A stretch of 27,732 bases of DNA, taken from IMG/VR virus record IMGVR_UViG_3300045135_002898, positions 1-27,732 of that record; one strand, given 5' to 3'. This DNA is from a virus. Shown piece by piece: positions 5,767 through 23,889 of the stretch (position 1 is its first letter; every line of letters starts with the position of its first letter). A program made the position numbers and the translations under genes. The notes under the pieces were generated by a model that did no database searches, had not been told where the DNA came from, and saw nothing but the letters and a program-made list of their open reading frames with translations.

Positions 5767-6609
5767 ATGGATCTCGAAAAACTCGCTTCTTCTCCTCGAA
5801 AGAATAACTCCTCTGAGCACCTGCAGCTTTTGGCTCGACGCGCCGTCGGTCGATTTCTGTCGAAGGAATCCGACAATCTGACCAGCGCAGTATCCGAGTC
5901 TATCAAAGGCGAAGGTCTGAACAAGGAGCAGATGCGGCGAGTTGCTGAGATGGCCAACCAAGCGGCGTGGAAAGAAACCTTCTCGGAAGATCGTCAAGTC
6001 AACTTTGCTCCAGCCGACCAGGTTGCGGTGATTGAGAGCTTCTCAGAAAAAGCAGAAGAAGTCCGACCCACAAACTCAGATTACATGTCAGGTCCCCCGG
6101 TGGAGAAAGTAGAAGTCGATCTCCATGAGGCTTTTGGCATTCAGCCAGACAATGAAGCCTACCCTGACTTCAACCCCAAGCAGGAAGCTCAGGAGGTCAC
6201 CGAGAAGGCTGCCTCCGCACGAGACCTGACCCGCCACACGCTGGATCGAATCGAGCGCGAGCTGCCAGAGCGTGCGCAGGACTTCTTCCACCAAGTCAAG
6301 CAAGCACACTTGATGGAAGGACACGCACTCACCAAGATTGCAAAGGCTGTTGCCGAAGTCACAGATTCCAGCTTTGCCACCTATTCGATGCGGGCGGCCG
6401 CGGAAGAATTGGTTCAGCAGGGGATTCGACCCAGCCTGAAAAAAGAAAAGCTGGCCGCAGCAGAAGATCTTCTAATCAATACAGATCACGATCTTATTAG
6501 ATCCGCAGTTCTGTTTGAGAAAGTTGCCAAAGCAGTTGTCCATGCACGAAAACGACATCAGATCGCAGAAGCCGCCTACACCAACTCTCTGAATGCCTTG
6601 CGAGGTTGA
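5767..6609 (+). CDS. Putative head-associated protein with repeated K-x-A motifs
   Basis: A 280-residue, mostly helical, charged protein. It starts 19 bases from the divergent regulator gene, with GGTGGG before the ATG. It begins MDLEKLASS, and EKAAS, TKIAK and EKVAK recur inside. This short motif is shared by many proteins of this module. It is the first gene of the plus-strand head operon, in a position where a portal would be expected, but its length and sequence do not fit a portal. An internal virion or scaffold-like role is a guess from context. Confidence 0.75.
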   Translation: MDLEKLASSPRKNNSSEHLQLLARRAVGRFLSKESDNLTSAVSESIKGEGLNKEQMRRVAEMANQAAWKETFSEDRQVNFAPADQVAVIESFSEKAEEVRPTNSDYMSGPPVEKVEVDLHEAFGIQPDNEAYPDFNPKQEAQEVTEKAASARDLTRHTLDRIERELPERAQDFFHQVKQAHLMEGHALTKIAKAVAEVTDSSFATYSMRAAAEELVQQGIRPSLKKEKLAAAEDLLINTDHDLIRSAVLFEKVAKAVVHARKRHQIAEAAYTNSLNALRG

Positions 6610-12207: not shown

Positions 12208-12702
12208 ATGGCCAAGTATCTAATCAAAAATACAGACGAATATCGGTTGATTTGGGCAGGCCGCTTGCGGTTCCGTCCCGGTCAGCAGATGTGGGTCAAA
12301 GACGTGGATCTTGGCCTTGTCCAAAAACACATCGACGCTGGCACATTTTCCGTGCTGCAGGCGTTGGGGGTTGAAGAAACTGCACCCTCGCCTGCTCTTC
12401 CTTCAGCTCTTTCCTCTGGGCCGGAACCTGCACCTGAACCTGAACCCGTGCTCGAACCAGAGCCGGAGCCAGAACCAGAGCCGGAACCGGAAGCACTCCC
12501 TGAGCCGGAGGTTGTCTCGGAAGCACACACCGAGGCAGCCTCTGAGGAAGAACAGGTGGGGGCGTCTTACACCGAAAGTGAACTCAAGGCGATGGTCTTG
12601 GCCGAGCTTCGGCCGTTGGCTGACAGTCTTGGAATCTCACACTCCGGCGTGAGAAAAGCAGACTTGATTGCACTCATTCTCTCCGCGACAGCTGGTGAAT
12701 AG
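12208..12702 (+). CDS. Pro-Glu-repeat protein with C-terminal HeH/SAP-like domain
   Basis: A 164-residue protein in three parts: residues 1-55, a small globular domain (IWAGRLRFRPGQQMWV); residues 70-102, an extended Pro-Glu repeat; residues 120-160, a helix-extended-helix or Rho-N-like fold (ELKAMVLAELRPLADSLGI followed by RKADLIALIL). Such C-terminal domains bind nucleic acid or protein in other phage and bacterial proteins. The rigid Pro-Glu linker resembles a spacer between two anchored domains. It follows the capsid gene by 11 bases. A head-surface or head-completion role is inferred only from context. Confidence 0.75.
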   Translation: MAKYLIKNTDEYRLIWAGRLRFRPGQQMWVKDVDLGLVQKHIDAGTFSVLQALGVEETAPSPALPSALSSGPEPAPEPEPVLEPEPEPEPEPEPEALPEPEVVSEAHTEAASEEEQVGASYTESELKAMVLAELRPLADSLGISHSGVRKADLIALILSATAGE

Positions 12703-13378: not shown

Positions 13379-13408
13379 TCCGATACCAAAACTTTCATGG
13401 AGAATCAA

Positions 13409-14122
13409 ATGAACCCCACACTTGCAGCCCTTTATGGCACTGGTATGGACAAGGTCGCTTCCGAAGAGGAAGGCGAGTTCGATCTGTCCGAGCTTTCTGA
13501 CGAAGAACTCATGATGCTGCTCGACGTTGGCGAAGCCGATCACGTCGAAGCCGACGAAGAGGACACCCTCAGCAAGATGGCTTCCCAAGGCGATCTCGAG
13601 TACTGGGATATGGCTGGCCGCATCATGGCTCATGCCTACACCGACGAGATGGACAAGGTTGCTGGTACTGAGGAAATTGAGCCTCTGTACTTTGACCTGA
13701 ACGAGCTCGACGCTGACGACCTGTACACGTTGGCAATGGAGAAGGAAGCCGGCATGCGTAGCATGATGAGCGGAATGAGCGGGATGGCCAACAAGGCTGG
13801 TGCTCGCATGCGTAGCATGATGCCCCGACGTCGCGCCCCCGCTGCTCCAGCCGCTGCCCCAGCTGCTCCTTCTGCTGCTCCCGCCGCAAGCGAAGCGATG
13901 GAAGAACTGACTGAGGCCGCCACCAAGGCAGCCAAGGGCGGCTCCCTCAAGGCTACTGGCGTCAAGTTCAAGGCCATGACTTCTCGCATTCCTCGCTTCG
14001 GTCCTCGCATTGAAGCCATGAGCGACGTGAATGCTGGAAAGGTTGCTGTCGGTCTTGCTGGCGGAACCGGTCTCGCCACGGTGGGTACTGGCGCTTACGC
14101 TATGCGTCGTCGGCGCAGCTGA
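13409..14122 (+). CDS. Acidic K-x-A-tagged head protein with Ala/Pro linker and hydrophobic C-terminus
   Basis: The start at 13409 is chosen because GGAG lies six bases upstream; the ATG at 13397 has no site. The 237-residue protein begins MNPTLAALYGTGMDKVAS, almost the same opening as the 14139 gene. It continues with an acidic region, SKMAS, AGRIMAHAYTDEMDKVAG (69-86), Met-rich and Ala/Pro-rich linkers, and a hydrophobic Gly-rich segment (209-230) before a terminal RRRRS. The abrupt change from acidic to basic along the chain and the repeated tag suggest processing during head maturation, which is inference. Confidence 0.75.
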   Translation: MNPTLAALYGTGMDKVASEEEGEFDLSELSDEELMMLLDVGEADHVEADEEDTLSKMASQGDLEYWDMAGRIMAHAYTDEMDKVAGTEEIEPLYFDLNELDADDLYTLAMEKEAGMRSMMSGMSGMANKAGARMRSMMPRRRAPAAPAAAPAAPSAAPAASEAMEELTEAATKAAKGGSLKATGVKFKAMTSRIPRFGPRIEAMSDVNAGKVAVGLAGGTGLATVGTGAYAMRRRRS

Positions 14123-14138
14123 TCAACAGGAGGTTGTC

Positions 14139-14498
14139 ATGGATGAACTGCTTGCAGGAGTCTACGGAACTGGTGGTTTCGAAAAGACTGCGTCTGAAGG
14201 CGGTCCGACCACTTTGCTTGAAATTGCACAGCTCTTTGCTTCTGAAGCAGTAGAGGATGGCGATCTCGAAAAAGTGGCCAGTGCCCGGGATGAAATCTTG
14301 GAGCACCTGCTGTCTTTCGATCAAGCTGGTCGAGCAATCGCTCAGCACGAGTTCACCAAGATGGAGAAGATGGCCTTTGCTGGCGATACTTCTGCCATTG
14401 AGGCGTTCTTTGCTGATGTCGAAGCTGATGTCGAAGAGCCGCAGCACGACGACGTCCAAAGTGCTGTCCTTGCTGAGATTGAAAGACGTCTCGGCTGA
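14139..14498 (+). CDS. Small acidic K-x-A-tagged protein, paralogue of the preceding gene
   Basis: CAGGAGGT five bases before the ATG at 14139 fixes the start. The 119-residue protein begins MDELLAGVYGTGGFEKTAS, matching the opening of the 13409 product, and contains DLEKVAS (43-48) and AGRAIAQHEF (63-72), matching AGRIMAHAY there. It is acidic and helical with no zinc site. It ends the head operon: a strong terminator follows after 26 bases. Function is unknown; a shared ancestry with the 13409 and probably the 9120 genes is visible. Confidence 0.75.
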   Translation: MDELLAGVYGTGGFEKTASEGGPTTLLEIAQLFASEAVEDGDLEKVASARDEILEHLLSFDQAGRAIAQHEFTKMEKMAFAGDTSAIEAFFADVEADVEEPQHDDVQSAVLAEIERRLG

Positions 14499-16298: not shown

Positions 16299-19200
16299 AT
16301 GGCATCCATCAAGCGTCCCGGTGTTGAGGTTACTCAGGAGAATGTAACCGCTGTCACCGCAACCACGACCCCCAACCTCGCAACCGTCCTGGTCGGCCCC
16401 TGTTTCCAGATCGTTGATGCCTTCGACGATGCTGGCGCCGTCCAGTCTGAAGCGCTGGCTGGTACCTACCAAGATGGCAAGGGCACGATTGCATACGCCC
16501 TGCCCAGCTTGAAGACGGGTGCAACGGTTGACTCTGACTCGATCCGGGTCTTCCGCGTCGATGGTGCTGGCACCTCCACCGAGCTGCGTGACTCCGACAA
16601 CGAAGAAACCATCGTTTCTGGAACCAGCGGCGACTACAGCCAGTCCGGGGGCACATTCACGGATACGGCTGCAGGTTTTGTGGCCAGCGGTGTCACAAAG
16701 GGTGACTTTGTTCGTGTGACTTATCAAGGTGAAGTGATCGACATCGAGATCACCGGAACAGTGTCTTCTGCGACAGTCTTGACCGTTGACACTCCGATTA
16801 CCTACACGGGCACACTCACATTCGCCACCTACTCGATCGTCCGCAACCCTCCGCAGTTTGTGTACAAGTCCGCTGCAGAGCAGGCCGACGTTGAGTTCCC
16901 GTTGTCTTCCTCCCCGGAGACCAACTACCTGCATGTCGCCATCAAGTCCACCGCGGCTTCTGCCCTGACGGGGGCAAGCGGTGATGGCTTCAAGATGCAG
17001 TTGAAGGAAACCGATCCTGACTACAGCATCACCTACGCCGCAACAGGTACTGGTGTAATTACAGCTACAGGCATCGGTACAGATCTTACGTCTCAGGGGC
17101 TCGCTGTGGGGCCTCTCTCCGACACAAGTGGTGTTGGAAGTGCGGTTGTCTTCTCCCACGCAACCGCAGTTTTGGGGTCAAATACAACTTCTGGAAATAC
17201 GCTGGAAGGTATTGTTGATGCCGATACTGTTGTTCTTGACGTCCATCTTGGTGCCGCAATCACTTCATCGTCTGAGGTAGTTGTTGGTAAGATGCTGGCG
17301 GACACGGTGGGTGATGGGTCTTCTACCACCTACACACAGTCATCCAAAACGCTTGTGTTCCCATCGGCTCACGGGATTCCAAACCCGCCAGGAGACAACA
17401 CCTTTGTACTTCTGGTAAAGGGCGGTTCTGGGACCGGGTCCGGTAACGACGGCCTCTATAAGGTCGCGAGCTACAGCTCAGCTACCGCAGTGATTCTTGA
17501 CGGAACTACAAACCCCGGCGCCGACATGACAGTCGCTTCGGACGGCAAAATCCAGTCGTTTATCGGCTCGGATCTTACCTCTGTGTCATCCGATGGTGAG
17601 TCTGGTACTCTGGGCACAGTCTACGACTACTCTACCAGTTCGACTCTGGGTACGGTTTTGAGTGGCGCTACCGGCAAGTCTATTGTCTTTGGCTCGGATG
17701 CCATGGCCTCCGCAGCCTACCAAGCCATCAACACTGTTTCCGGACGAGTCATTACCCTCACCGGAAACCTGGGCTCTCCCGCAGCTGGTACCGCGGTGAC
17801 AAACGGTGCATCTGGGAAACAAGCCCTTGCAGTCGAGACCACCGCAACGACGAACTTCGTTGAGCCCTCTGGCTCCAGCGTCACTTACCAGATTGAGCTT
17901 CCACGCACCGACGGTCAATCAATCGTTGCAATCGCAACGCTGGCTTCGGACTTGGATGGGGACAGCACTTTCTCCGCAAACTTCGATGCAACCGCGAACG
18001 GAAGCGGCAACGTCACCTACGCTGAGGTCACCACGGTAGACTTCGACGGCGGTGTGGATGCAGACAACATCCTTGTTGATGAAGACCTGATTGGTTCGAC
18101 GACTGCCACCCACAGCATCTACGTCAGCTACAAGGCTCTCCGCGTTGATGTCTCCGACCAAGCCAGCAGCCCTGCTCTGGTTGAGATCAACACCACCACA
18201 GATGTGACCAACCTGCTTGGCAAGATCTCGACGGACAACCCGCTGGCTCTTGCTGCCTACTTCGCAACGCTCCAGTCCCCCTCGACCACTGTGAAGTGCT
18301 TGGGTGTGAGCGCTACAAGTACCGCAGAGCCTGCCGGAACCACTGCTGCCTACTCCAGCGCCCTCACCTACCTCGAAGGTCAGGACGTGTACTCTCTGGC
18401 CTGTCTGAGCACTGATCCTGCAATCCAAGCACTGTTCGAGACCCATGTGACCAGCATGTCGGCCGCAGAGAACAAGAGTGAGAGAATTGCTTTTGTTAGC
18501 CAAGACATGCCTTCCTACACCCCAGCTACGTTGTTGAGCTCGGGGACGGCTGGCAATACTGGTGCATCCTTCAGCAGTGACTACACGTTCACCACAAACG
18601 TCGACTTCTCCTTGAATGCGACCCTCACCACAGTGTTGGCTGACACCGCAAGTGATGACTTGATCCTTGTTGTGACTGCGCGCTCTTCAGTCACGAAGGC
18701 TCCGACCGCCGCGAATGGTGTTCTTCCCATCAAGTATGGTATTCGAGTAGACAAGGCTTCCTCGAGCGCTGCTTCTGACCGCACCACTCTCGTGCTGAAC
18801 TCCACAGACGTAGCCGCTGCGCTGGTTCTTGATTCCACTTGGACAAGCATGGTCGACGTCACCTGGTCACTGTTCCAGATGGGTAGCGCCCTCAGCACCA
18901 CCGCGCAGAAGGCCACCGCTGTTGCAGATCTGGGATCGCAGTTTGAAAACAAGCGCGTGTTCTTGGTCTGGCCGGACAGTGCAAATGCTTCGATTTCAGG
19001 ATCTGCCACGGTGGTTGGTGGTGAGTACCTTGCCGCTGCTTGGGCAGCAAAGGTCGGATTCGAGAAGCCTGAGCAGGCCTTCACCAACACCACGCTGACC
19101 GGATTCAGTAGCCTGAGCAACTCGAACACGCTGTTCTCCCGCTCGCAGCTGGACGCCATCGCTGGTGGCGGTGTCTGGATCACTGTCCAGAACACACCCT

Positions 19201-19538
19201 CCTCCGCTCTGAGTTGCAGACACCAGCTGTCCACGCTGGTTGACACAATCCAGAACAGAGAGCTGTCGATCACCAAGACGGTTGACCATGTTGCCAAGCG
19301 TCTCCGCGCAGTCCTCGAGCCCAAGATTGGTTCTTTCCGAATCACACAATCTTATCTGGATTCTCTGGGTGTGATTGTTGAAGGCGAGCTGCGAAACTTC
19401 GTGGAAACTGGTGTGCTCACTTCTGGAAAGGTCAACTTTGTGGAAGTGGATGATGTGGATGCTGATACAGTGAATATCCAAGTGATCATCACCGTTCCGT
19501 TCCCGGCCAACTACATCGCCCTGACCCTGCAGTTCTGA
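16299..19538 (+). CDS. Tail sheath protein (contractile tail)
   Basis: The 1079-residue protein forms the contractile sheath. The N-terminus (ASIKRPGVEVTQEN) is the characteristic RPG[V/I]-type sheath opening. The C-terminal 100 residues (HQLSTLVDTIQNRELSITKT through VPFPANYIALTLQF) match the conserved sheath core. TAGGAG stands before the ATG. The protein is long for the family because of large beta-rich, Thr/Ser/Gly-rich inserts between residues about 60 and 650. Nucleotides about 17040-17560 use less biased codons than the flanks, which suggests a later insertion. It defines the phage as a myovirus. Confidence 0.9.
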   Translation: MASIKRPGVEVTQENVTAVTATTTPNLATVLVGPCFQIVDAFDDAGAVQSEALAGTYQDGKGTIAYALPSLKTGATVDSDSIRVFRVDGAGTSTELRDSDNEETIVSGTSGDYSQSGGTFTDTAAGFVASGVTKGDFVRVTYQGEVIDIEITGTVSSATVLTVDTPITYTGTLTFATYSIVRNPPQFVYKSAAEQADVEFPLSSSPETNYLHVAIKSTAASALTGASGDGFKMQLKETDPDYSITYAATGTGVITATGIGTDLTSQGLAVGPLSDTSGVGSAVVFSHATAVLGSNTTSGNTLEGIVDADTVVLDVHLGAAITSSSEVVVGKMLADTVGDGSSTTYTQSSKTLVFPSAHGIPNPPGDNTFVLLVKGGSGTGSGNDGLYKVASYSSATAVILDGTTNPGADMTVASDGKIQSFIGSDLTSVSSDGESGTLGTVYDYSTSSTLGTVLSGATGKSIVFGSDAMASAAYQAINTVSGRVITLTGNLGSPAAGTAVTNGASGKQALAVETTATTNFVEPSGSSVTYQIELPRTDGQSIVAIATLASDLDGDSTFSANFDATANGSGNVTYAEVTTVDFDGGVDADNILVDEDLIGSTTATHSIYVSYKALRVDVSDQASSPALVEINTTTDVTNLLGKISTDNPLALAAYFATLQSPSTTVKCLGVSATSTAEPAGTTAAYSSALTYLEGQDVYSLACLSTDPAIQALFETHVTSMSAAENKSERIAFVSQDMPSYTPATLLSSGTAGNTGASFSSDYTFTTNVDFSLNATLTTVLADTASDDLILVVTARSSVTKAPTAANGVLPIKYGIRVDKASSSAASDRTTLVLNSTDVAAALVLDSTWTSMVDVTWSLFQMGSALSTTAQKATAVADLGSQFENKRVFLVWPDSANASISGSATVVGGEYLAAAWAAKVGFEKPEQAFTNTTLTGFSSLSNSNTLFSRSQLDAIAGGGVWITVQNTPSSALSCRHQLSTLVDTIQNRELSITKTVDHVAKRLRAVLEPKIGSFRITQSYLDSLGVIVEGELRNFVETGVLTSGKVNFVEVDDVDADTVNIQVIITVPFPANYIALTLQF

Positions 19539-19542
19539 TTAA

Positions 19543-20445
19543 ATGAAATACTTCGCTCAAAGCATGACCAAGATCGCTCAGGATGGACTGGTTTCCAGTC
19601 CGTCTCCAGCGCAGGTCTATGCTGCGAGGAAGGCGGATGAGCAGTATCGGCAGGACATAAAGAAGGGGTCACCGTCGGGGTATGCGAATGCCGTGGCGGG
19701 GGCAATCATGGTTCCCTTGATTACTCCCGCGCTGTTTAGCTTGCCCTCGATCACTCCTGACAAGATCTCGAAGCACATCAATACGGTTTACGTTGCCGAG
19801 GCCATCAAGCACCGCTTTCCCGGTTTTGGTGACGACGCCAATCATGTGGCTGCCGCGATCGTTAACTCTTCTTTCGACAATCCAATCACACGAGATGTGA
19901 CGGGTAAGATCGTAAAGATGAAGTTTGACATTGCCCATGCCATCTCGATGAACGGCGCACCTGGTGTCGACAAGCAGCGTGGTCAGCGCATTGTGGCTGA
20001 TGCAGATCGTGAGATCAAAAAACTGCTCCCTCCGGGATCTGGAAAAACCCCAAGAGAGCGGTTTGATTTGTTCGATTTCCACATGAAGCAAAGTGTCCTT
20101 CAAGGAAGACCTGCTACTTATCAGGGCATGCTTCAGAACAAGACCATCTTCATGCCAGAGCTCGTCCCCGGGTTCAACTCAGATTACGCAATGGCGCTTA
20201 CGGAGATGGGCAAAGACTTCTATAAGCGGCGGACAGGGAAAGAGTTGACGTCAAATGCGGCGGCAATCAAGTTGATTGCGAAGGCTGCAGGCAACTCCCT
20301 GAAGGCTGGTGTGCCTCTTGCGTTGCTTGCTGGTGGTTTTGCTGCGGCGAGGCACCACAAGTCGACCAAAGGCATTAGAGACTTTCAACGAGGGCAGCGG
20401 CCTGCGCAACAAGACCCGGCTGCAATATGGGGAAACAATGATTGA
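19543..20445 (+). CDS. K-x-A-tagged hypothetical tail-module protein (300 aa)
   Basis: Starts four bases after the sheath stop and has no clear ribosome site, so it probably depends on sheath translation. It begins MKYFAQSMTKIAQDG, with the shared K-I-A tag at 10-12. Hydrophobic stretches lie at 47-70 (YANAVAGAIMVPLITPALF) and near residues 255-270 (AGVPLALLAGGFAAA). The rest is charged. It sits between sheath and tube genes, where conventional tail modules have no gene. No family is recognised. Confidence 0.7.
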   Translation: MKYFAQSMTKIAQDGLVSSPSPAQVYAARKADEQYRQDIKKGSPSGYANAVAGAIMVPLITPALFSLPSITPDKISKHINTVYVAEAIKHRFPGFGDDANHVAAAIVNSSFDNPITRDVTGKIVKMKFDIAHAISMNGAPGVDKQRGQRIVADADREIKKLLPPGSGKTPRERFDLFDFHMKQSVLQGRPATYQGMLQNKTIFMPELVPGFNSDYAMALTEMGKDFYKRRTGKELTSNAAAIKLIAKAAGNSLKAGVPLALLAGGFAAARHHKSTKGIRDFQRGQRPAQQDPAAIWGNND

Positions 20446-20870: not shown

Positions 20871-21632
20871 ATGGCTACAACAGCTGATTGGGACTTCTTC
20901 AACAGAAATGTACAGTCTGGTCTCTTGGAAGGCCGCTACCTGAATGCTGCGTTTACCATGATTGCTGCTGGTCCTCCTCGACTGTCGGCCATCAGTGGTG
21001 CAGACCCAACCGCCGATGGCACCTCGATCGCTTTTCCGATCGGCGTCATCCAGAACTTTAACGTTGGCCAGAGCTCTCAGGTTCTTCGCCTGTTCGAGAT
21101 TGGTTCTGAGCGCAGCTACTTCATTCGTGGCCGTACGATGGGCACACTGGGTCTGGGTCGCGTGATGTACCACGGACCTTCCTTGCTGCGTGTTCTGTAT
21201 GCCTACGTCAACGGTGAACTGGTCAATGGTCAGACGATTGAAGCCCTGTACGAAGGAGCCTCTGATCAGACCGCGTCGCTGAACACCAACTCCACGACCG
21301 GAAACGCCAAAGGCAATCGGTACAACACCAACCCCGGTAATGAGAACATCTGGCTGGATCTGGCTTCTGATGTCTTCTCTCAGCCGATTGGTCTGATGAT
21401 GCTCATGAGAGACAGCAACAACGACACCGTTGGGGCTTTCTACTTCGAGTACTGCCAGATTACAAACCACGGATTTGCCGCCGATTCCGGTGGGACGATC
21501 TTGTCAGAAAACGCCAGCATCATGTTTGAGAGAGCAGTCCCAATCTCCAGCGTGGATGTGGTGGGTCTGATCAGCAGCTCTGATTCGATCTCTGACATCA
21601 TCAACGGCGACGCGATTGGCTCTGCGAGCTGA
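20871..21632 (+). CDS. Putative tail tube protein
   Basis: A 253-residue, low-Lys, beta-rich protein (FPIGVIQNFNVGQSSQVLRL; ERSYFIRGRTMGTLGLGRV) with GGGAG before the ATG. It is the usual length for tube proteins of large contractile-tail phages and lies downstream of the sheath gene. It is strongly biased to C-ending codons like the capsid and sheath genes, indicating a highly expressed virion component. A terminator follows after 50 bases. No K-x-A tag is present. The identity rests on order, fold-like pattern and expression signs. Confidence 0.65.
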   Translation: MATTADWDFFNRNVQSGLLEGRYLNAAFTMIAAGPPRLSAISGADPTADGTSIAFPIGVIQNFNVGQSSQVLRLFEIGSERSYFIRGRTMGTLGLGRVMYHGPSLLRVLYAYVNGELVNGQTIEALYEGASDQTASLNTNSTTGNAKGNRYNTNPGNENIWLDLASDVFSQPIGLMMLMRDSNNDTVGAFYFEYCQITNHGFAADSGGTILSENASIMFERAVPISSVDVVGLISSSDSISDIINGDAIGSAS

Positions 21633-22585: not shown

Positions 22586-22594
22586 GGAGAGAAG

Positions 22595-23440
22595 ATGTCG
22601 AGCTACAGAAGCAAGCTTTCAGAAGGGATTCACAGAGGTATCGGAGCCGGAGTACAGCAGAACCAACAAGCGATGGGTGTTCAAGATCCTGCGCTTGCAG
22701 CAAAGCTGGCAGCCCTGCCACCGGGCGAGCTCCAGAAGGCACTTGAGCAGATTGAGCGAAAGGACGCAGAAGCCGCTGAGCTCCGCGCCGAGCTTGAGGC
22801 CATGGTTGCTGCAGGCAAGTGGGAAGCACCGAAACCTCTCGAAGTGGCCTCTTTCGAAGAGATGGCTGAGTGGAAAGCCGCCTACGACAAAGCCGAGATC
22901 GAGCGGCAAGAGAAGCAAGATCTGGAAAATTCGGATCTAATGTCTCTGTCTATCGGTATGGATCATCCGCTCTACAATCCAATCGCTGACACTGCGCGGA
23001 GACTCCGCATCGAAAAAACTGTCAGTGAGATGGACTTTGATGAGATGGTCTTCCGCGGTCATTGCGATCAAGAGATCCGTATTCGAAAGAACTTCGTTGT
23101 TGTTTTTCGTACACTGACCACACAGCACGGTCTCTGGCTGGAGATCATGCTCTCAAATGCGCCCCGGTCTTCTGAGCAGCATCTGCGCCACTGGTTCTCC
23201 CTGCTGCAGGTTGCGGCCTCCGTGCAGACAATCAATGAGAAGAACATCGGCGCAGATCTGTCGAAATTCTCGAAAGAAGCGCATCGAGAAGACTTCATCA
23301 AGGCTGTTGAGGCCAAGATGGAAGCGCTTGGAAGAATGCCTTCTGCAATCACGGATGACTTGATTGTGAACTACACCTGGTTCAGTGGTCGAGTCCGTCG
23401 GATGCTGTCGGATGACATAAACGAAAAAGTGGGAAACTGA
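22595..23440 (+). CDS. Tail assembly chaperone, short (G-type) product
   Basis: The start at 22595 (MSSYRSKL) has GGAGA four bases upstream; the longer start at 22538 has none. The 281-residue product has a helical, coiled-coil N-terminal third (residues 45-70, EQIERKDAEAAELRAELEAM) and a helical C-terminal region. It is read in the zero frame to a stop at 23438-23440, immediately after the slip sequence GGGAAAC, and the -1 frame continues into the next open frame. This arrangement and the place after the tube gene match tail assembly chaperone pairs (lambda G/GT type). The primary sequence itself was not recognised. Confidence 0.7.
   Translation: MSSYRSKLSEGIHRGIGAGVQQNQQAMGVQDPALAAKLAALPPGELQKALEQIERKDAEAAELRAELEAMVAAGKWEAPKPLEVASFEEMAEWKAAYDKAEIERQEKQDLENSDLMSLSIGMDHPLYNPIADTARRLRIEKTVSEMDFDEMVFRGHCDQEIRIRKNFVVVFRTLTTQHGLWLEIMLSNAPRSSEQHLRHWFSLLQVAASVQTINEKNIGADLSKFSKEAHREDFIKAVEAKMEALGRMPSAITDDLIVNYTWFSGRVRRMLSDDINEKVGN
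23431..23437 (+). promoter_or_regulatory. -1 programmed ribosomal frameshift site
   Basis: The heptamer G GGA AAC is in the correct phase (GTG GGA AAC TGA) and has the X-XXY-YYZ form; lambda uses GGGAAAG. The two frames overlap only from 23416 to 23440, and the heptamer falls inside that short window, directly before the zero-frame stop. Downstream, GCTCAG (23451-23456) pairs with CTGAGC (23468-23473), and a GCCC/GGGC pairing (23447-23450, 23459-23462) could make a pseudoknot-like stimulator. Confidence 0.75.
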
Positions 23441-23889
23441 TCGAGCGCCCGCTCAGTTGGGCACGGGCTGAGCTTTTGTATGAAAGACTAAGTGGGCGCG
23501 AAGACATCAATCCACTTCAAGAAAGACTCTTGATTTTGGTACACATTCGAAAAAGAAAGATCCGTCTCAAAGAGATGGAGATTGTGGCAATTGCAGGAAT
23601 CCGAGCAGAGAACAAAGATTCTCTTATTGGATTGCTGGAGTCCTACAGGGACATGCTGTTTCCCGGATTGTCCGAGGTTGATCGCGGACCCACAGAAGAA
23701 GAAAAAGCAAAGAAGGCGCTCGCAGAAGAAAGTCAAAAAGTCTACCTTGTTAAGCCATATGATAAGGTCACTGATGAAGTCTGGAAGGAGATGGCAGAGA
23801 AGGGCGGTGATGCCGCATTCATTGCTCATCGAGAGCTGAGAGAACGTCAACGATTTAAATCCCGACTCACAAACAAGGGTAAAAAATGA
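23437..23889 (+). CDS. Frameshift-only extension of the tail assembly chaperone (T-type)
   Basis: The -1 frame after the slip site adds 150 residues (LIERPLSWARAELLYERL...), giving a 431-residue fusion with the 22595 product. The only independent start is a TTG at 23476 (137 residues) with no ribosome site, so expression by frameshift is more likely. The region is basic and helical (LVHIRKRKIRLKEMEIVAI), with a charged C-terminus ending KGKK. In known phages such extensions contact the tape measure or tube during assembly; here that is inferred from the arrangement. Confidence 0.7.
   Translation: MIERPLSWARAELLYERLSGREDINPLQERLLILVHIRKRKIRLKEMEIVAIAGIRAENKDSLIGLLESYRDMLFPGLSEVDRGPTEEEKAKKALAEESQKVYLVKPYDKVTDEVWKEMAEKGGDAAFIAHRELRERQRFKSRLTNKGKK

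Follow-up and report, generated by a model that had tools for sequence, protein, structure and literature searches.

The stretch analysed here, called the window, comprises one metagenomic virus record of 27,732 bases (IMG/VR record IMGVR_UViG_3300045135_002898), and it very probably carries a programmed -1 ribosomal frameshift in a gene for the tail assembly chaperone of a large phage with a contractile tail. All elements of the gene pair lie on the + strand. The zero frame (22595-23440) opens with the ATG at 22595, 5 nucleotides (nt) behind a GGAG ribosome-binding-like site read in the sequence at 22586-22589, and closes with the TGA at 23438-23440; it encodes a protein of 281 amino acids (aa), the putative G-like chaperone. 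Its 3' end reads GTG GGA AAC TGA, in which G-GGA-AAC (23431-23437) is an in-phase slip heptamer directly 5' of the stop codon. By direct reading, the zero and -1 frames overlap over the 25 nt from 23416 to 23440, and the -1 frame, preceded by a TGA at 23413, is open from 23416 to 23889. After a slip it would add 150 aa (23437-23889, with the stop at 23887-23889), a candidate T-like domain that begins L-I-E-R-P-L-S-W-A-R-A-E-L-L-Y, giving a predicted fusion product of 431 residues. No listed start precedes the conserved block of the -1 frame in the window: the first start-like codon, TTG 23476, which would yield 137 aa, is 3' of the first conserved block, and the first ATG is 53 codons in. A preliminary description had proposed a phase-correct GGGAAAC within a 25-base overlap, a -1 frame open for 150 codons past the slip and lacking a good start, and products of 281 and 431 residues; its frames and coordinates all agree with direct reading, and the product sizes fit the frames read.

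What would be expected of this junction in relatives if slippage were under selection? Queries with the terminase and tail-tube genes gave 13 related virus records, three of which (G001, G002 and G013) match the upstream protein; the printed junction sequences of G001 and G002 are identical. Judged by contig ranges, most of the ten records without a match stop short of this region. A search of viral contigs with three aligned fused proteins led to nine loci (25 pattern matches, 9 relatives), and a rescan of the viral contigs by profile returned the same contigs. Together with the window, eight of these loci were read at the base level; the ninth, L031, is the G002 region, and its junction was read as L016. 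Nothing was found in a close-relative scan with the upstream protein alone, by tblastn against phage records, or in a scan of bacterial and archaeal genomes. In all nine viral sequences with both halves (the window, L029, L030 and L032-L037), an in-phase heptamer stands 0 or 1 codon 5' of the zero-frame stop; the heptamer reads GGGAAAC in three, GGGAAAT in four and AAAAAAC in two. With two isolates added, Salmonella phage Arash and Vibrio phage D69, all 11 of the distinct junctions read have a slip site, and the A-site codon in each of them is for Asn (AAC or AAT) or Phe (TTC), never AAG. These loci are related by descent and hence are not independent trials; the letters of the heptamer vary and the slip rule holds, which is the pattern predicted by selection for slippage. 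Relatives that retain both frames and have lost the heptamer were looked for, and none was seen.

Protein conservation changes frame at the same place. The fused proteins align across the junction as (L/V)(G/K)N-(L/W)-(L/I)...-WA(R/Q)A(E/N)(L/V)LY, and the W, A, A, L and Y just past it are invariant in 9/9 sequences. On the 5' side of the heptamer, the -1-frame residues of different sequences are unrelated; conservation sets in at the heptamer itself. L035 and L036 differ at 10 of 423 nt in the -1 extension, where 7 of the differences fall on third positions in that frame, and at 72 of 828 nt in the upstream zero frame. The -1 frame is under protein-level selection from the slip onward, as judged from the point where conservation begins and from this one close pair.

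The heptamer by itself proves little. As a bare string GGGAAAC is not rare (6 in the window, with 3.4 expected), and a second in-phase copy at 20430-20436, near the 3' end of the gene at 19543-20445, is likely a coincidence, since the -1 frame there closes after a single codon. The in-phase pattern X_XXY_YYZ, with Y being A or T, is rare: it occurs at 1 of 2651 zero-frame codon positions in the nine family genes, junction excluded, and at 4 of 5743 codons in other window genes, one of the four being the copy at 20430.

A stimulatory RNA structure is predicted at 23445-23499, 7 nt past the heptamer, and consists of a 9-bp stem with an inner arm. In the predicted minimum-energy structure GCGCCCGCT (23445-23453) pairs with AGTGGGCGC (23491-23499). 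Folding of the 70 nt downstream was compared with control windows of the same gene at 10 of the 11 junctions, L036 being omitted as a near copy of L035. The z score of the window is -2.51, with 1 of 27 control windows at least as low; values are lower still for L035 (-2.65, 1 of 27 controls as low), Arash (-3.04, 0 of 20) and D69 (-3.83, 0 of 19), lie between -1.36 and -1.50 for L033, L034 and L030, and are -0.79 for L037 and -0.89 for L032. Downstream folding is stronger than the control mean in 9 of the 10 loci, although only mildly in four of these. The signal depends on length: it is weak with a 45-nt folding window (z -0.31 for the window) and appears at 70-75 nt. The preliminary description had pointed to the segments 23451-23456 and 23468-23473, which are indeed complementary; they fall outside the predicted minimum-energy structure, and the RNA stimulator is probably the 9-bp stem, not this 6-bp hairpin.

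If the site works as its layout suggests, most ribosomes would read through to the TGA at 23438 and produce the 281-aa G-like protein. A minority would slip back one base at GGA AAC, re-pairing on GGG AAA with the help of the stem downstream, and would continue to 23889, yielding a GT-like fusion of 431 aa. If lambda is a guide, the tape-measure protein would be coated by the short form, tail-tube subunits would be brought in through the extension, and the slip frequency would set the ratio of the two forms. In the lambda model described in PMC5009743, the short product coats the tape-measure protein, a domain of the rare frameshifted molecules recruits the tube subunit, and both then leave. 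For the window, the occurrence of slippage, its rate and its role in tail assembly are inferred. The mechanism is already known, and it is the gene family that is new to Pfam and PHROGs.

The chaperone label comes from fold, gene order and the Arash virion proteome. The zero-frame protein consists of a poorly conserved, mostly helical N-terminal extension (residues about 1-130) and a conserved chaperone-like core (residues about 148-273). An AlphaFold2 model built on nine upstream proteins has a mean predicted local distance difference test score (pLDDT) of 76; most of residues 131-270 score above 80, whereas residues 1-29 fall below 50. In structural re-alignment the best row is YqbN (3klu; Z 7.1, 89 aligned residues, 3.3 A), a member of a phage chaperone family, and the second is the HK97 tail assembly chaperone (2ob9; Z 6.5, 91 aligned, 3.5 A), both over residues about 148-273. 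Foldseek also ranks 2ob9 first in the PDB, without significance (E 0.93), and in BFVD an annotated chaperone of Rhodococcus phage Finch comes fifth (E 0.011). The upstream model also matches two consecutively numbered proteins of Bacillus phage G, gp181 and gp182 (BFVD G3MBP8 and G3MBP7; TM score normalised to gp181, 0.77), which may be a chaperone pair of their own. The window carries terminase, major head protein and tail sheath by PHROG match, and a gene 5' of the pair (20871-21632) is presumably tail-tube-like, since it follows the sheath gene and matches a structural protein of Arash.

Among cultured phages, a profile of the core finds Arash (E 0.0036), 1.7 kb into the genome, and the same search does not find D69. 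Arash gp2 and its D69 counterpart, 43.5% identical over the matched part, both end in an in-phase AAA-TTT-C followed by TAA, and in both the -1 frame continues with a W-A...R block. When D69 is compared with the family by hhalign, the upstream part gives E 1.6e-4 with a probability of only 50%, and the extension E 0.006 with only 6%, so that sequence, order and slip site have to be taken together for the D69 link. Gp2/gp3 of Arash and of D69 are probable homologues of the window pair. The D69 extension also has protein-level matches of 100% identity in D181 and D148. Directly 3' of the pair is an open reading frame (ORF) of 1,097 residues in Arash and 1,045 in D69. In the Arash virion proteome table (PMC10585845, section 16), gp4 is listed (1,952 spectra) and neither gp2 nor gp3 appears; the words "frameshift", "chaperone" and "tape measure" have 0 occurrences in the main text of that paper. 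Arash gp4, which no library names, is likely the tape measure on the grounds of length, position and virion presence; its high spectral count by itself is no argument for this. The tail-chaperone label, also given by the preliminary description, is therefore well supported by fold, synteny and the Arash virion table, but indirectly so, with no sequence homology to a named chaperone.

Several results weigh against a frameshifted tail chaperone. The tool used for structural re-alignment notes that Z below 8 may reflect a common arrangement, and the fold matches are accordingly counted as support, not proof. Searches of Pfam and PHROGs match no chaperone family, hhalign against lambda G and HK97 gp13 gives nothing significant, and a sequence profile against the PDB gives nothing meaningful; low sequence similarity among tail chaperone members is noted in PMC5009743. 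A fold search with the extension, modelled at a pLDDT of 69, has no match, and its weak Pfam match to Cas2 (E 0.042-0.069), below the family cut-off, is taken as chance. No recognisable tape-measure gene follows the pair in the window or in its nearest relatives G001 and G002, and the tape-measure-like protein of Arash has no match in 10 of the 10 related records searched. In G011 the tail-tube gene is present and no match to the chaperone gene is found in 110,689 bases. Finally, L029, the closest relative, shows no unusual downstream folding (z -0.06, with 16 of 27 controls as low).

The missing chaperone and tape-measure matches would also suit a real frameshift in a different protein, an unlikely alternative in which the two forms belong to another structural protein or assembly factor, such as one that helps to assemble the baseplate hub. 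A T4-like baseplate hub assembly protein is among the weak BFVD matches, and in G013 (L017 and L021) the gene lies about 147 kb from the tail-tube gene along the record, unlike the order in the window. Against this, chaperones are the best fold matches, the Arash/D69 pair is followed at once by a long ORF, the product of which is found in the Arash virion, and Arash gp2/gp3 are themselves missing from the virion table.

It is much less probable that there are two separate genes, the downstream one started at its own TTG 23476 with the heptamer incidental. The 137-aa ORF from that codon does exist, the deposited records of Arash and D69 each list two distinct proteins, and T4-like phages reportedly, by the title of Vladimirov et al. 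2022, use a mechanism other than frameshifting. However, the invariant W-A-x-A-x-x-L-Y block begins just past the slip and precedes the TTG, and a slip heptamer is kept at every distinct junction read. The window being a single metagenomic record, a sequencing or assembly error that broke one gene could also be imagined, but the relatives refute this, since other contigs and isolate genomes change frame at that very position, and its probability is negligible.

Taking the frameshifted chaperone as the preferred reading, a broader proposal can be advanced, somewhat less likely than not. The pair may found a separate lineage of frameshifted chaperones, invisible to the databases, in diverse large contractile-tailed phages that include Arash and the D69 group. 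In this lineage the heptamer would have changed on more than one occasion (GGGAAAC/T, AAAAAAC, AAATTTC), never placing a lysine codon (AAG or AAA) in the A site, and the branch of the window would have gained its long N-terminal helical extension, with a tail or baseplate role of its own. In the literature on frameshifted tail chaperones and on Arash, a body of work considered here with most subscription papers outside its scope, we found no description of the family. The analysis offers a likely function and decoding mechanism for two proteins filed as separate hypothetical proteins in Arash and D69. It also adds a phage group that sequence libraries have missed to those with conserved tail-gene frameshifting. 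Natural heptamer swaps within one gene family would also be a ready-made set for studying how slip rate is tuned for tail assembly.

Other features of the window can be recorded in passing. Many otherwise unrelated + strand proteins of the virion module have a (D/E)-K-(I/V/L/T/A)-A-like motif, often in the first 50 residues, as in the genes at 5767, 7547, 9093, 9545, 13397, 14136, 20438 and 23886, with variants such as FMSELRKIA and AFEDELHKIA. Similar N-termini are found in L024, L025 and L037; the motif may be a targeting or processing signal. The neighbouring proteins of 13397-14122 and 14136-14498 share an LxxxYGTGxxxKxASE-type start, which suggests duplicated small proteins, and the protein of 12208-12702 has a proline-glutamate repeat, EPEPEPEP, in its middle. 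The tail sheath (16299-19538) is long, at 1079 aa, and its best sheath-family match covers only residues 902-1078.

How does the pair compare with known systems? T4 gp26 and gp51, said to have been proposed as the T4 chaperones, are likewise assembly proteins of a large contractile-tailed phage, but genes 26 and 51 are on opposite strands, so that no frameshift can join them, and they show no profile similarity to the window family in a comparison of low sensitivity based on single T4 sequences. HK97 gp13 is closer in fold, 2ob9 being one of the two best solved structures for the window core, and a -1 frameshift is annotated in HK97; the simple X_XXY_YYZ scan of the HK97 stretch finds no site. 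Unlike gp13, with which it shares no sequence similarity, the window protein carries about 130 additional residues at its N-terminus. The gp2/gp3 pairs of Arash and D69 have an in-phase AAATTTC and a -1 extension, whereas their upstream proteins are shorter, at 185 and 171 aa, and are without the long N-terminal extension; these pairs adjoin the terminase gene. Relative to lambda G/GT, the window gene is about twice as long (281 versus 140 aa), its family has AAC/AAT or TTC in the A site where lambda has AAG, there is no detectable sequence similarity, and no recognised tape-measure gene stands beside the window pair. The same scan recovers lambda's own GGGAAAG, and the two systems are alike in having a short and an extended form, with the lambda pair 5' of the tape-measure gene and the Arash/D69 pair 5' of a tape-measure-like gene.
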